A stretch of DNA of 64,000 bases from Terriglobia bacterium (GTDB lineage Bacteria > Acidobacteriota > Terriglobia > Terriglobales > Acidobacteriaceae): NCBI GenBank assembly GCA_020072645.1, contig JAIQGK010000009.1, positions 124,001 through 188,000 on the forward strand, given 5' to 3'. A model generated the notes under the pieces. It saw only the letters and a program-made list of their open reading frames with translations. It ran no database searches and was not told the DNA's origin. Within the stretch, counting starts at the first letter, position 1; each line of letters begins with the position of its first letter. Positions 2,803 through 44,860 of this stretch are shown one piece after another. A program made the translations under genes and the position numbers.

Positions 2803-4356
2803 TTATTTCGATTGCAATGCTGTTGCCGGCCCTGCCTGCACCCTGCTGTGCTTGATTCCGTAGGTGAAGTAAATCACCATTCCAATCACAAGCCAAATGA
2901 TGAGCCGCAGCCAGGTATCACCCGGAAGGGAGCGCATCAGCCAGAATGCCGCCAGCATCCCAGCAATTGGTGTAAAGGGAACCCACGGGGTCTTGAAAGG
3001 CCGCGGCATGTCAGGACGTTTGCGCCTGAGAACCCACACACCCGCGCAGACAATCACAAAGGCCAGCAAAGTGCCGATACTCACCAGTTCACCAAGAACG
3101 CCAATTGGAATCAGCGCGGCAAAAAATGCAACAAAGATGCCGACAATGATCGTGGATTTCCATGGCGTACGGAATTTTGGATGAATTTCGCCGGCCCACT
3201 TCCACAACAAGCCGTCACGCGACATGGAATAAAACACGCGAGACTGCCCCAGCAACATGACCAGCATCACCGTACTTAAACCGGCAATCGCGCCAACGTT
3301 CACCAGCAGGCTTCCCCACCAGACGCCGGTCAGGGACATGGCGAGCGAAACCGGAGCCGCCACATTGAGCTGCGAATAGTGAACAACACCCGTGAGCAAC
3401 AACGAAACAACAATATAGAGCACGGTGCAGACTGCCAGAGAGCCGAGGATCCCGATCGGCATATCTTTCTGCGGATTTTTTGCTTCCTGCGCCGCGGTAG
3501 AAACCGCGTCAAAACCGATATAAGCGAAAAAGACGACGGCGGCTCCTCGGGCAATGCCTGACCATCCGTAGATTCCGTAAGTGCCGGTGTTGGGCGGGAT
3601 AAAGGGCGTCCAATTGGCTTTAGCCTGGGCCATGTGGTGCGACACGTAATTACCGGCAACAGCAATGAAAATGAGCACGGCCGCCAGCTTCACAAACACA
3701 ATTGCGGAGTTGAAATTTGCCGACTCCTTGATGCCGATCACCAAAACTGTGGTCACCATCAAAATTCCAAGAAATGCCACAAGGTTAAAAACGGCCGTGA
3801 CATGCGGCAGAGTGTGCCAATCGATTCCCGAATCCGTCAGAGTTTTCTGAATAGTGGCCAGCGGCATCCAGTTGTTCTTGTACAGGACCATCTGCGTTCC
3901 CGGCACGTTAATCAACTTGGGAGGCAGATTGATGCCGAAGCCCTGCAGGAATGCGACGATCGTGCCGGCCCATCCGGAAGCGACCGTGGCCGCGCCGAAG
4001 GCGTATTCCAGGATCAGGTCCCAGCCAATGATCCAGGCAAAGATTTCACCCAGCGTGGCGTAGCCATACGTGTAGGCAGAGCCGGCGATGGGAATAAGAG
4101 CGGCAAATTCTGCATAGCACAAACCGGCAAAAACGCAGCCCGTCCCTGCAAAGATATATGAGAGAACAATGCCCGGACCGCCATATTGGGCCGCTGCTGC
4201 TCCGGTCAGAACAAAAATTCCTGCGCCGATAATCGCGCCGATGCCAAGCGTGATCAGATTGATCGGCCCCAGCGCGCGCTTCAGGCTGTGCTCGTTTTCC
4301 TCCTTGGATTCGGCGAGCAACACGTCCATCGGCTTCGTAGCCAGAATATTGGCCAT
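2803..4356 (-). CDS. APC superfamily amino-acid permease (paralogue 2)
   Basis: Twelve-helix amino-acid transporter of 517 residues, closely similar along its whole length to the permease at 1159-2694. Shared blocks include the N-terminal GIGAIIGAGIFVLTG and FFAYIGFDAVSTAAQEAKNP. ATG at 4356 has AAGGAG nine bases upstream. It follows the permease at 4380-5918 by 23 bases and so belongs to the same transcript, which ends at the terminator at 2752-2780. The close similarity to its neighbour indicates a local duplication. Substrate unknown. Confidence 0.93.
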   Translation of the reverse strand: MANILATKPMDVLLAESKEENEHSLKRALGPINLITLGIGAIIGAGIFVLTGAAAAQYGGPGIVLSYIFAGTGCVFAGLCYAEFAALIPIAGSAYTYGYATLGEIFAWIIGWDLILEYAFGAATVASGWAGTIVAFLQGFGINLPPKLINVPGTQMVLYKNNWMPLATIQKTLTDSGIDWHTLPHVTAVFNLVAFLGILMVTTVLVIGIKESANFNSAIVFVKLAAVLIFIAVAGNYVSHHMAQAKANWTPFIPPNTGTYGIYGWSGIARGAAVVFFAYIGFDAVSTAAQEAKNPQKDMPIGILGSLAVCTVLYIVVSLLLTGVVHYSQLNVAAPVSLAMSLTGVWWGSLLVNVGAIAGLSTVMLVMLLGQSRVFYSMSRDGLLWKWAGEIHPKFRTPWKSTIIVGIFVAFFAALIPIGVLGELVSIGTLLAFVIVCAGVWVLRRKRPDMPRPFKTPWVPFTPIAGMLAAFWLMRSLPGDTWLRLIIWLVIGMVIYFTYGIKHSRVQAGPATALQSK

Positions 4357-41573: not shown

Positions 41574-42119
41574 ATGTCCGGCATGGCTGAATCATTCAGC
41601 AGCAAGCTCGCCGGAATAACGCTCCCCGACGCCGACGGCAAGCCAACGCGGCTCGGATCGTTGTGGGAAACCGGACCCGCCGTGGTGGTCTTTCTTCGTC
41701 ATTACGGTTGAATCTTCTGCGGAGAGCATGTCGCGCAGTTGCGCGAATTTGAAGCCGAGTTCAAACGTAAGGGAGCCCATCTTGCTGTTGTAGGCCTGGG
41801 CGATGCCAGCTATGCCAAGTTCTTCCGCGAGAAAACCGGCATCCAGTTCCCTCTTCTGATTGATGACAAGCGTGAAGCCTATAAAACCGTTGGCCTGCGT
41901 CACGCTACACTGCTCCACCTTCTGCGCAAAGACAATTTACAGGCACGCAAACGGGCCAAAGCAGCAGGACACAAACAGCATCGCCTGGGAAAAGATCCGT
42001 TGCAGCTTGGGGGCAGCTTTGTGTTTGCGCCGGGGAACAAAGACCTGTTCGTCCATGTGAGTGAAACTTTTGGCGACAACGCGAACCCAAAAGACATGCT
42101 GGAGGCAATTCTGGGATAA
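41574..42119 (+). CDS. Peroxiredoxin-like protein with in-frame UGA, candidate selenoprotein
   Basis: Thioredoxin-fold peroxiredoxin of the AhpC-TSA_2/PRXL2-like type, 181 residues if UGA is read as selenocysteine. The frame is open from ATG 41574 to TAA 42119 except for UGA at 41709-41711, codon 46. The context is VVVFLRHYG-UGA-IFCGEH. In the family this position is the first Cys of a CxxC motif (commonly FLRHFGCxFC), so UGA replaces exactly the redox cysteine and leaves C49 in place. Downstream sequence keeps full protein character (LAVVGLGDASYAKFF, GGSFVFAPGNK). A SECIS-like hairpin follows. The alternative is a recent nonsense mutation. No sel genes are in the window. Confidence 0.72.
41731..41746 (+). 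promoter_or_regulatory. SECIS-like hairpin downstream of the UGA codon
   Basis: TCGCGC-AGTT-GCGCGA forms a perfect six-base stem with loop AGUU. The loop G lies about 27 bases after UGA, within the distance usual for bacterial SECIS elements. A lower helix CTTC (41714-41717) with GAAG (41751-41754) could close the structure near the UGA. Confidence 0.55.
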
Positions 42120-42189: not shown

Positions 42190-42375
42190 ATGGCCATTCG
42201 AGTTACCACAGGTGGATTGCAACACATTACCAAAGAACAAATCGAAAAGATCGAAAACAAACTTCTTCAAGCTGTCGTAAGCGAAATCGGCCCGGAACAT
42301 GCGCTTAAACCAGACTGGACTCAAATTACATTCTCAAGAGTTGGTCCATCTCACCCACCCCCAGTAAAAAAGTAA
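42190..42375 (+). CDS. Small peptide, candidate RiPP precursor
   Basis: 61-residue peptide with AAGGAG 11 bases before its ATG, just upstream of a radical SAM/SPASM maturase and an HExxH protein. Residues 14-33 form a predicted amphipathic helix (TKEQIEKIENKLLQAVVSEI) that could be a leader. The remaining tail has W43, F48, H55 and a proline stretch (SRVGPSHPPPVKK) and could be the modified core. No known core motif (such as a terminal FxSxx) is present, so the precursor role rests on size, start signal and position. It could instead be an unrelated small protein. Confidence 0.55.
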   Translation: MAIRVTTGGLQHITKEQIEKIENKLLQAVVSEIGPEHALKPDWTQITFSRVGPSHPPPVKK

Positions 42376-42503
42376 GTTCAGGTTAGAATAGATTTTGCTG
42401 CCAACACTTCTAACATGGGAGAACGTCTTCTTATGCGTGGAATCAGCTAAATTATACCCAGCCCTTAGGGTTGCAGTACGAACCGTAAGTTAAGGACCCA
42501 TCC

Positions 42504-43784
42504 GTGCAGTCAGCCAAGGCCAGTACTGCCAATTCCAATTGCTCCTTGCCAAAGGCTTGCCCTGAGGGCGCAAAGTGCCATTTACTGGTTGTTAAAGTTG
42601 CGAGCCGTTGCAACCTGAATTGTTCTTATTGTTATGTATACAATGCAGGCGACAACAGCTACCTGCAGCAGCCGGCTGTTATGTCAGACGAGACCATGGA
42701 TGCTGTGGTGCAGCGAGCGGCAACACATTGCCGCCAGCATGGCATTAAGCTATTCACATTCGTGTTTCACGGCGGTGAGCCGCTGCTGGCCGGTCAAAAT
42801 TTCTTTCGCCGTTTTGTAGCGCAGGTAGCCAGTCATTTTCCAGCGGAAACCAAACCTCTTTTTTGCCTTCAGACCAACGGTACTCTCTTAACGAGGGACT
42901 GGTGCAAATTACTATCTGAGTTGAATATTGGAATTGGCATCAGCATGGATGGTCCTAAGGAGTTCAACGATATCCATCGGGTCTATCACTCCGGCAAAGG
43001 GTCCTACGACCACGTGCTGGCGGGCTGGGAGGCAGCAAAATCGTGCGGCCTCCGGCCAGGGCTTCTTGCCGTCGTGAATATAAAAGCTGATCCGCTTGAG
43101 GTCTATCGCCACGCCAAGGAACTGAATCCCCGCTCGATCGATTTCCTGCTTCCCGACTCTACACATGACAAACTTCCTCCAGGCCAAGTGGCTGGTAAGG
43201 AAACTACTCTGTACGCTGACTGGTTGCTGGAAATATTTAAAGTCTGGGTGGCTGAGGCAGAGTCGCCGTTTCGCATACGACTATTCACACACCTCATGCG
43301 TACTATCCTAGGGGCCAATGATTCTTTTGACAATTTCAGCCAAGACCCAAACGAAGTAATGATCATAGAAACAAACGGCGCAATCGAGTCTTTAGATGTG
43401 CTTAAAGTCTGCCGCCATGGCATTACCAAATCTTTTACCAATGTGCTGACACACGAGCTCGACGAAGCATTTGACAATGAGATGGTCAGTCTTTATTACA
43501 ACAGTGGCCGGCAGCTGTCCACGACCTGCCGCCAATGCCTCATCCAAAGCGTTTGCGCCGGAGGTTATTTACCGCATCGCTACCGCCGGGACAATGGTTT
43601 TGACAATCCGTCAGTGTACTGCCATGACCTGATGAAGCTGATTACCGAAATACAAAGCTGGGTGGTTGCACATTTACCGGAGGAATTAAGGATTGAAAAC
43701 TCTCTGATCCCGGTGACATATGCACAAGCCCGCGCTCATCTTCAAATTGCTTTTCAAATTTCTTCAGGACATATTTCTGAGTAG
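42504..43784 (+). CDS. Radical SAM/SPASM peptide maturase, FxsB-like
   Basis: 426-residue iron-sulphur enzyme. The SAM-binding cluster is C36-x3-C40-x2-C43 (SRCNLNCSYCYVYN), followed by HGGEPL and the QTNGTLL strand. A C-terminal SPASM domain has C303, C342, C345, C351 and C373 (CRQCLIQSVCAGGYLPHRY, NPSVYC). This pattern matches FxsB-type cyclophane-forming maturases, which link aromatic side chains to unactivated carbons in ribosomal peptides. The GTG start has AAGGA seven bases upstream. The candidate precursor lies 128 bases upstream and the HExxH gene 5 bases downstream. The modification chemistry is inferred from family. Confidence 0.85.
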   Translation: MQSAKASTANSNCSLPKACPEGAKCHLLVVKVASRCNLNCSYCYVYNAGDNSYLQQPAVMSDETMDAVVQRAATHCRQHGIKLFTFVFHGGEPLLAGQNFFRRFVAQVASHFPAETKPLFCLQTNGTLLTRDWCKLLSELNIGIGISMDGPKEFNDIHRVYHSGKGSYDHVLAGWEAAKSCGLRPGLLAVVNIKADPLEVYRHAKELNPRSIDFLLPDSTHDKLPPGQVAGKETTLYADWLLEIFKVWVAEAESPFRIRLFTHLMRTILGANDSFDNFSQDPNEVMIIETNGAIESLDVLKVCRHGITKSFTNVLTHELDEAFDNEMVSLYYNSGRQLSTTCRQCLIQSVCAGGYLPHRYRRDNGFDNPSVYCHDLMKLITEIQSWVVAHLPEELRIENSLIPVTYAQARAHLQIAFQISSGHISE

Positions 43785-43789
43785 TAGCC

Positions 43790-44860
43790 GTGCATTGCTC
43801 GGGGGTAAATCGACAGCCAATGCGAATGGCAGAATTCCTTGAACGGTTATGCGGTGTCCTTGAATGGAACGATAGCTCATTTTCAAACACCGTGCATGAC
43901 AAATATTATTGCCATCTTACTGAAAGATTGGAAGCGGCAGTTGCGGCCGTTACAGTTTCCGATCCAGATGCAGGAGAAGCTGCGCATCTTTTGCTGGAAG
44001 CGCTGCCCCCGGCGCAACGCCTGGACTTTATTTCCGCTCCGCACATTGCCGCCTCCATCATTTCTCCGGAGGTGTTCCGCCGGAGCGAGAGCCGAAATTT
44101 CTTTTTGAAAGCTCTCGGCATTGCTGCAGGCTGCGTTTCTGATCATGACGCACCCCTCTACAATCAACGAGGAGAGTTAGTGAACGGCCCTCATGAGGTT
44201 CCGCCTAATAATGATTACAGGATAAGTTTTGGAGGAGATTTACCAATCCCGTTTATGGACCGCGGCGGGAACTCCTTGAGTCCCATCCTGGGAGACGATG
44301 CACAGCACATCCTTGACAAGGTAACAGGCGCCGGGAATCTGGTGCGAAATGTAAATGAAAAGGCTTACGCTTTTTCGCGGCAATATACAGAGGTTTTGGT
44401 CTTCCGCTACGAGTCTCAGTATCCAGCGGATTTTTCGTCCGGCTCATTTCAAACACTTCCCGGTTTCAGCTTGATTTGTAATTGCCATTTGACCACGGCG
44501 ACTGAAGCTGTACTTGCAGATGCGATCATCCATGAAGCGATTCACAGCATCATCTATCAATTTGAGTCCTTCGGTGAACCACTGCGGAGAAAGGGCAAGC
44601 GGACGAACTTCCAGGTCGTTTCTCCATGGACCGGCACCACACTTGGCGTGGAGTCTTTTGCCCAGGCCTGTCTGGTCTGGTTTGGATTGCTTCATTTTTG
44701 GAAATCGGCATGCGATCATGGGAAAGAACCAGTGGCTTTGTATGAACGAGCAAAAAAAGGGTTTGTCTCACCCAATTATGCGAGCGTTTGCCATTCAACC
44801 GAAGCTCATCTATCCGCAGATGTCGCTTTGGTCCTAGCAAAACTGCAAAGCTTTTTGTGA
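43790..44860 (+). CDS. HExxH-motif protein, putative peptide hydroxylase
   Basis: 356-residue cytosolic protein with a central metal motif H248-E-A-I-H252 (ADAIIHEAIHSIIYQFE). Proteins of this type accompany FxsB-like maturases and are annotated as 2-oxoglutarate-dependent HExxH-type peptide beta-hydroxylases. The motif superficially resembles a zinc protease, but the surrounding sequence (SLICNCHLTTATEAVLADAIIHEAIH) fits the RiPP family better. GTG 43790 is five bases after the rSAM stop; ATG 43820 is an alternative start. A protease role in leader removal cannot be excluded. Confidence 0.75.
   Translation: MHCSGVNRQPMRMAEFLERLCGVLEWNDSSFSNTVHDKYYCHLTERLEAAVAAVTVSDPDAGEAAHLLLEALPPAQRLDFISAPHIAASIISPEVFRRSESRNFFLKALGIAAGCVSDHDAPLYNQRGELVNGPHEVPPNNDYRISFGGDLPIPFMDRGGNSLSPILGDDAQHILDKVTGAGNLVRNVNEKAYAFSRQYTEVLVFRYESQYPADFSSGSFQTLPGFSLICNCHLTTATEAVLADAIIHEAIHSIIYQFESFGEPLRRKGKRTNFQVVSPWTGTTLGVESFAQACLVWFGLLHFWKSACDHGKEPVALYERAKKGFVSPNYASVCHSTEAHLSADVALVLAKLQSFL

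Follow-up and report, generated by a model that had tools for sequence, protein, structure and literature searches.

This locus raises the question of whether an in-frame UGA in the window (the whole 64-kb stretch of DNA that was analysed) ends a short reading frame or is read as selenocysteine (Sec) at the active site of a redox protein. The frame, whose coordinates are given in Table 1 with those of the other features, contains a single internal TGA, and with UGA as Sec its product has 181 residues (MSGMAESF...FLRHYG-U-IFCGEHVAQL...ILG). The first-pass annotation had reported protein-like sequence on both sides of this codon (FLRHYG-U-IFC), and the same was found when frame and translation were re-read. 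Judged from sequence, the UGA at 41709 is very probably (about 96%) decoded as Sec in a thioredoxin-fold redox protein of the PRXL2/AhpC-TSA_2 type. The evidence consists of the conservation of the UGA and of the hairpin, a complete set of Sec machinery, one case in which Sec and its machinery are missing together, and a predicted fold that places UxxC at the CxxC site of PGF synthase. As for the start codon, ATG at 41583 is more likely than that at 41574, because four orthologues (L019, L023, L026, and L027) have ATG at the former and none at the point of the latter; with this start Sec is residue 43, and the numbering U46 used here counts from 41574.

Table 1. Positions of the candidate selenoprotein gene and its elements in the window.
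Feature	Position	Strand	Basis
Candidate selenoprotein gene, PRXL2/AhpC-TSA_2 type	41574..42119	+	Reading frame; PF13911 and NF040769 matches
UGA codon, putative Sec46, probable nucleophile of UxxC	41709..41711	+	TGA in 34/34 distinct rows
TGC codon, Cys49, putative resolving cysteine of UxxC	41718..41720	+	TGC in 32/34 and TGT in 2/34 rows
SECIS-like hairpin UCGCGC-AGUU-GCGCGA, loop 41737-41740	41731..41746	+	Codon freezing, covariation, bSECIS constraints
Proposed closing helix, CTTC 41714-41717 / GAAG 41751-41754	41714..41754	+	Present here, conservation unsupported

The product had been called peroxiredoxin-like, a description that holds at the level of the superfamily. In Pfam, the highest match is AhpC-TSA_2 (PF13911, 64 bits against a cut-off of 27), followed by AhpC-TSA (PF00578, 45 bits against a cut-off of 26) and Redoxin, and the protein combines the PF13911 score with a thioredoxin fold and a redox pair at the CxxC position, as is characteristic of PRXL2/AhpC-TSA_2 proteins. 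The best NCBIfam match is NF040769, SelL-related redox protein, over residues 15–178, with 127 bits against a cut-off of 120 when C is written for U and 118.1 bits, under the cut-off, when the stop is left in place. The predicted structure, in which Sec was modelled as Cys, has a pLDDT of 93.5 and a pTM of 0.90, and shows a strand at 36–43 and a helix at 47–58 that begins right after Sec46. Its top PDB match (TM 0.79/0.87, 25% identity) is 9usa, human prostamide/PGF synthase carrying the C44S/C47S mutations; the best solved structure by sequence is 9us9 (3.7e-10), whose C44 and C47 face U46 and C49, and the UGA indeed falls at the first Cys position of CxxC, as had been proposed. The classical peroxiredoxin motif, named as PxxxTxxC/U in part of a 2026 catalogue of prokaryotic selenoproteins (PMC13188914), is absent from the protein, where FLRHYG precedes U46. 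On the predicted model, the protein is thus of the AhpC-TSA_2 or "SelL-related" type, with human prostamide/PGF synthase (SelU3) as its closest structural match, and the earlier description does not extend to the classical TxxC peroxiredoxins.

The UGA itself is strongly conserved among relatives. TGA stands at the Sec codon in all 34 distinct close orthologue rows, the window's copy counted; these are 41 members minus seven duplicates, from which three paralogues (L030, L041, and L042), a frameshifted copy (L080), and two Cys forms (L082 and L083) had been left out beforehand, and two of the 34 TGA rows come from MAGs labelled Deltaproteobacteria. Aligned at codon 46, none of the close orthologues found has TGC. 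Similarly, 12 close orthologues span the codon in a set of 100 genomes (own copy counted), all 12 with TGA; the copy in G002 is split across two contigs, and its first piece carries one TGA. A scan of named genomes gave 32 relatives, 26 of them titled as Acidobacteriota taxa and the nearest, at 95%, an Acidobacteriaceae MAG; the codon is TGA in 30 and TGC in two, the latter being proteins of 34–36% identity from Chloroflexi and Planctomycetia MAGs (L082 and L083). Because one of the two scan patterns was built with Cys in place of Sec, the scan was not biased against Cys orthologues. Sequence after the TGA is under purifying selection, with a crude pN/pS of 0.03–0.43 in seven pairwise comparisons, and all 34 rows show what marks a bacterial selenoprotein, namely an in-frame UGA at the redox position followed by conserved coding sequence.

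A simple nonsense mutation was named as the rival from the outset, with Sec preferred; it would make the locus a recent pseudogene or the source of a truncated or re-initiated product, for which a 126-aa ORF with a TTG start at 41739 is at hand. UGA is a stop in translation table 11 and that downstream ORF exists mechanically, but it lacks residues 1–55, hence strand 36–43 and both motif residues, and an inactivating mutation sits badly with the same TGA in every one of the 34 distinct rows, with purifying selection on both sides of it, and with the frozen hairpin codons and the Sec machinery described below. Such a mutation is very improbable, and the original preference for Sec was well placed. 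Another way to keep the frame open is that UGA is read as Trp, Gly, or Cys through global reassignment or suppression, given that a frame kept open by a changed code says nothing by itself about which residue is inserted. However, TGA is also the terminal stop of the gene in 16 of the 34 rows, which means that it is not globally reassigned; in addition, distant relatives have Cys at the codon, and the genome holds tRNA-Sec(UCA) together with SelB. Decoding as one of these other amino acids is therefore hardly credible, and Sec is retained as the residue at position 46.

Several further copies deserve mention in their own right. In the MAG copy L080, a short segment covering the SECIS hairpin is missing right after UxxC and the frame is shifted; the gap lies about 100–150 bases into the match starting at 4001 and represents either a deletion or a collapse of the inverted repeat during assembly. 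In the search of 100 genomes, many other Prx-like matches in the class were listed with one in-frame TGA, and in the three that were read (L030, L041, and L042) this TGA falls at the motif; Prx-like Sec proteins may be numerous in the selenoproteome of the Acidobacteriota.

A perfect 6-bp hairpin with loop AGUU, about 27 bases downstream of the UGA, had been put forward as a SECIS element. It is present, with the stem UCGCGC/GCGCGA and a loop that begins at UGA+26. The constraints on bacterial SECIS elements given in part of the 2026 catalogue are a loop of 3–9 nt, an upper stem of 4–16 bp, a G within the first two nucleotides of the loop, a spacing of 16–37 nt, and an MFE of at most −7.5 (PMC13188914); the hairpin is conserved and lies within these published bounds, with a 4-nt loop AGUU, a 6-bp stem, UGA+26, and −9.4 to −10.2 kcal/mol. 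By itself the hairpin is weak evidence, since in the window sequence alone 121 of 2000 synonymous recodings are as strong. Across the 34 rows, the hairpin codons are frozen (GCG 34/34, CAG 34/34, TTG 33/34, and CGC 31/34), whereas elsewhere in these genes Leu is mostly encoded by CTG or CTC. The synonymous entropy of the hairpin codons is 0.00–0.43 bits, while 35 other conserved-residue codons of four-fold or higher degeneracy average 1.67 bits and go no lower than 1.05. The hairpin sequence is so fixed there that no two-sided compensatory change occurs within the 34 close rows.

Covariation was read from 48 Sec rows, namely the 34 close rows and 14 more distant Sec members, with the duplicates L094–L096 and the Cys form L100 left out and L114–L119 not added. 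In this set, two-sided changes were counted in nine stem cells, compared with 1.9 ± 1.2 in shuffles, and the covariation score was 0.174 against 0.109, neither value being matched in any of 500 shuffles. Pairing holds in 89.6% of stem cells, and sliding the partner brings this down to 66.0% or less; slid stem versions also give up to seven two-sided cells, and further pair types do not go beyond the shuffles, 57 of 500 of which reach the same number. Compensated stems are seen, for example, in L102 and L109 (GGUGC-AGGU-GCAUC) and in L111 (GGCGC-AGUU-GCGCC). Of 51 Sec sequences, which include three duplicates, 45 have a loop that begins at UGA+26, and in the other six the best hairpin lies elsewhere. 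It had also been suggested that a CTTC/GAAG helix closes the hairpin: the complementary letters are present in the window sequence, but conservation of the helix is not supported, as 113 of 500 shuffles score as high and the outermost pair is unpaired in 19 of the 34 rows. The 51-nt region was also scored for energy against synonymous shuffles, with z-scores above 0 in several Sec rows and of −1.98 in the Cys row L083; since these scores do not discriminate, they were set aside, and stem position, codon conservation, and covariation were used instead.

The source genome (6.4 Mb, 99% complete, 42 contigs) was searched for selA, selB, selC, and selD, and all four were found, each over its cut-off. 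One tRNA-Sec lies above the Rfam cut-off (anticodon UCA, 73.9 bits against 47); SelB scores 387.9 against a cut-off of 242, SelA 550.5 against 268, and SelD exceeds its cut-off in two pieces around an in-frame TGA of its own. SelD itself (L048, G000:C12, about 254514–255335) is a predicted selenoprotein with the TGA in GUASK, and the Sec-SelD motif is given as UxxK in the rows seen of a published table (PMC13188914). A second Prx-like Sec candidate (L112, G000:C17:22800-24800, minus strand) is AhpC/TSA-like with a hydrophobic N-terminal part and has the motif YW-UGA-PFC and a best hairpin with an AGTTA loop at UGA+17. With the TGA of SelD and that of L112 beside the window gene, the source genome holds at least three Sec gene candidates.

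Across 396 genomes sampled from the phylum Acidobacteriota, 26 family members were found in 25 genomes (E at most 1e-15); read singly, they comprise 22 UxxC, three UxxU, and one CxxC form, with TGA in 25 of 26. The machinery comparison covers 23 of these 25 genomes. SelB is over its cut-off in 22 of the 23, and so is tRNA-Sec, and the exception for both is G462, the sole CxxC genome among them; of the remaining two of the 25 genomes, G000 has selB and tRNA-Sec and G007 has tRNA-Sec. Among nearer relatives, tRNA-Sec was found in nine of 13 genomes carrying the gene. In the other four (G002, G005, G009, and G015, 81–92% complete), no convincing tRNA-Sec was found even in a laxer search: the best match in G005 (48.1 bits) is slightly above the cut-off of 47 but is read by ARAGORN as tRNA-Ser, and those in G002, G009, and G015 are read as tRNA-Ser or tRNA-Gly. 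A selB match is present in all four and over the cut-off in three, and the absence of tRNA-Sec there is likely due to assembly gaps. In the 100-genome set, tRNA-Sec occurs in 71 genomes and the window-type gene in only 13, which makes the gene one among several that use Sec. G001, G019, G078, and G342 each have two tRNA-Sec matches over the cut-off.

These results also bear on a regulatory read-through of the stop, in which a short and a long form are made and the hairpin enhances read-through instead of serving as SECIS. A hairpin directly 3′ of the stop would suit such a device, and the ratio of long to short product cannot be read from sequence; yet the UGA sits exactly at the redox-active Cys of relatives, the hairpin keeps within the published bSECIS constraints, and across the 23 genomes the distribution of TGA and Cys forms follows that of selB and tRNA-Sec, so that read-through of this kind is extremely unlikely. 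Decoding as Sec, the main claim of the first-pass annotation, is strongly supported by the conserved TGA, the frozen and compensated hairpin, the Sec machinery, and the matched absence in G462.

From these sequences we infer Sec insertion in the cell and the following catalytic cycle. SelB would bring tRNA-Sec and bind the hairpin at 41731–41746, so that the UGA at 41709 is decoded as Sec. The product would be a thioredoxin-fold oxidoreductase with the active-site motif Sec-Ile-Phe-Cys, in which Sec46 may act as the nucleophile that attacks a peroxide, an endoperoxide, or a disulfide; Cys49 would then resolve Sec46 as a selenenylsulfide, and a thioredoxin- or glutathione-type system may re-reduce the enzyme.

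The surroundings of the gene were analysed as well. In the 64-kb window, there is no Rfam match at the gathering threshold and no tRNA was found. No terminator-like site was found, and promoter-like sites numbered two against 1.0 expected. Over 31 loci, with flanks of up to about 4 kb and the gene's own post-UGA half set aside, neighbouring ORF families recur in five at most: a TonB-type gene is found in five and an upstream short-chain dehydrogenase in four, and no neighbour is shared broadly enough to suggest a substrate. Directly downstream in the window, at 42190–44860 (plus strand), lies a possible RiPP cluster, made up of a 61-aa ORF (42190–42375), an FxsB-like radical SAM/SPASM protein (42504–43784; TIGR04269, 358 bits, slightly below the cut-off of 370), and a frame at 43790–44860 with a weak HExxH beta-hydroxylase match (26 bits against a cut-off of 40); no such cluster stands beside the selenoprotein gene in the other loci compared.

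In a tree of 57 rows (54 different), made without L116, L118, and L119, which the search pattern missed and which were read separately, 40 UxxC rows form one clade (100/99, from a bootstrap that had not settled). It includes MAGs labelled Thermoanaerobaculia, Bryobacterales, and Deltaproteobacteria, and the Sec form is present in 40 of 40 rows, three pairs of which are identical. Three UxxU rows (L111, L115, and L117), in which two TGA codons lie nine bases apart, form a clade outside it (100/96, same unsettled bootstrap), and three CxxC rows are placed with Sec rows on long branches where the tree lacks resolution. Of the 23 genomes of the phylum sample compared for machinery, the one in which neither selB nor tRNA-Sec exceeds its cut-off (G462) is the one with the Cys form.

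The most unusual trait of the family is that nearly all members found are Sec forms. It has been reported from the GOS survey that Cys homologues far outnumber Sec forms in most selenoprotein families, with 225 Sec and 2,740 Cys sequences for Prx-like 1, and that SelW-like and UGSC are exceptions, as far as the part seen of that paper goes (PMC2398784); the comparison is loose because the family of the window protein is narrower. The trait raises the question of what Sec does here beyond Cys. It is conceivable, though on balance doubtful, that this is a bacterial branch of PRXL2/SelU-SelL in which Sec has become fixed, from which the UxxU branch descends or with which it shares a root, which is the counterpart and possibly the source of eukaryotic SelU/SelL, and whose chemistry Cys cannot replace; if so, the Sec-fixed branch would act on peroxide or endoperoxide. 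Genes of this kind are easily misannotated, as truncated or as two ORFs, and the present one would offer a clean and widely conserved UxxC selenoprotein of the Acidobacteriota whose SECIS shows in the conservation of synonymous sites and in compensatory pairing.

Among known systems, SelL is selenoprotein L, with a diselenide UxxU motif. Three phylum relatives of the window protein (L111, L115, and L117) resemble it in having UxxU, whereas the window protein has UxxC (UIFC); SelL is set apart here by its motif description, and the best NCBIfam match of the window protein, NF040769, is borderline in score (127 or 118.1 against 120). SelL is described as a Prx-like selenoprotein in the portion seen of the GOS survey (PMC2398784). 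Sec in Prx-like proteins is already well known. An AhpC/TSA selenoprotein of pfam13911 is listed with UxxS in a 2022 table, of which part was available (PMC9312934), and the 2026 catalogue, likewise seen in part, lists PF00578 with UxxC/UxxU and cd02970 with UxxS, NF040769 being absent among the rows of its selenoprotein table that were covered (PMC13188914). These bacterial proteins have the same domains as the window protein or overlapping ones, but the listed pfam13911/cd02970 type carries UxxS and the window protein UxxC; the latter may already be counted under the PF00578 UxxC/UxxU entry, which was compared by description. The classical Sec peroxiredoxin (TxxU) shares the superfamily (PF00578), while the window motif, RHYGUIFC, contains no TxxU/C. 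No paper on a UxxC AhpC-TSA_2 branch of the Acidobacteriota appears among the titles and abstracts listed, a search with most subscription journals outside its scope. The closest likeness in fold is to the SelU/PRXL2 enzymes (9us9 and 9usa), with C44/C47 aligned to U46/C49; human PGF synthase, also named PRXL2B, is a Cys form about 25% identical to the window protein and was compared through its PDB chains only. Prostamide/PGF synthase is SelU3 in metazoan nomenclature, and metazoan SelU includes Sec forms, according to the part seen of the source (PMC3473315), so that the proteins described here link bacteria to the animal SelU/PRXL2 enzymes.
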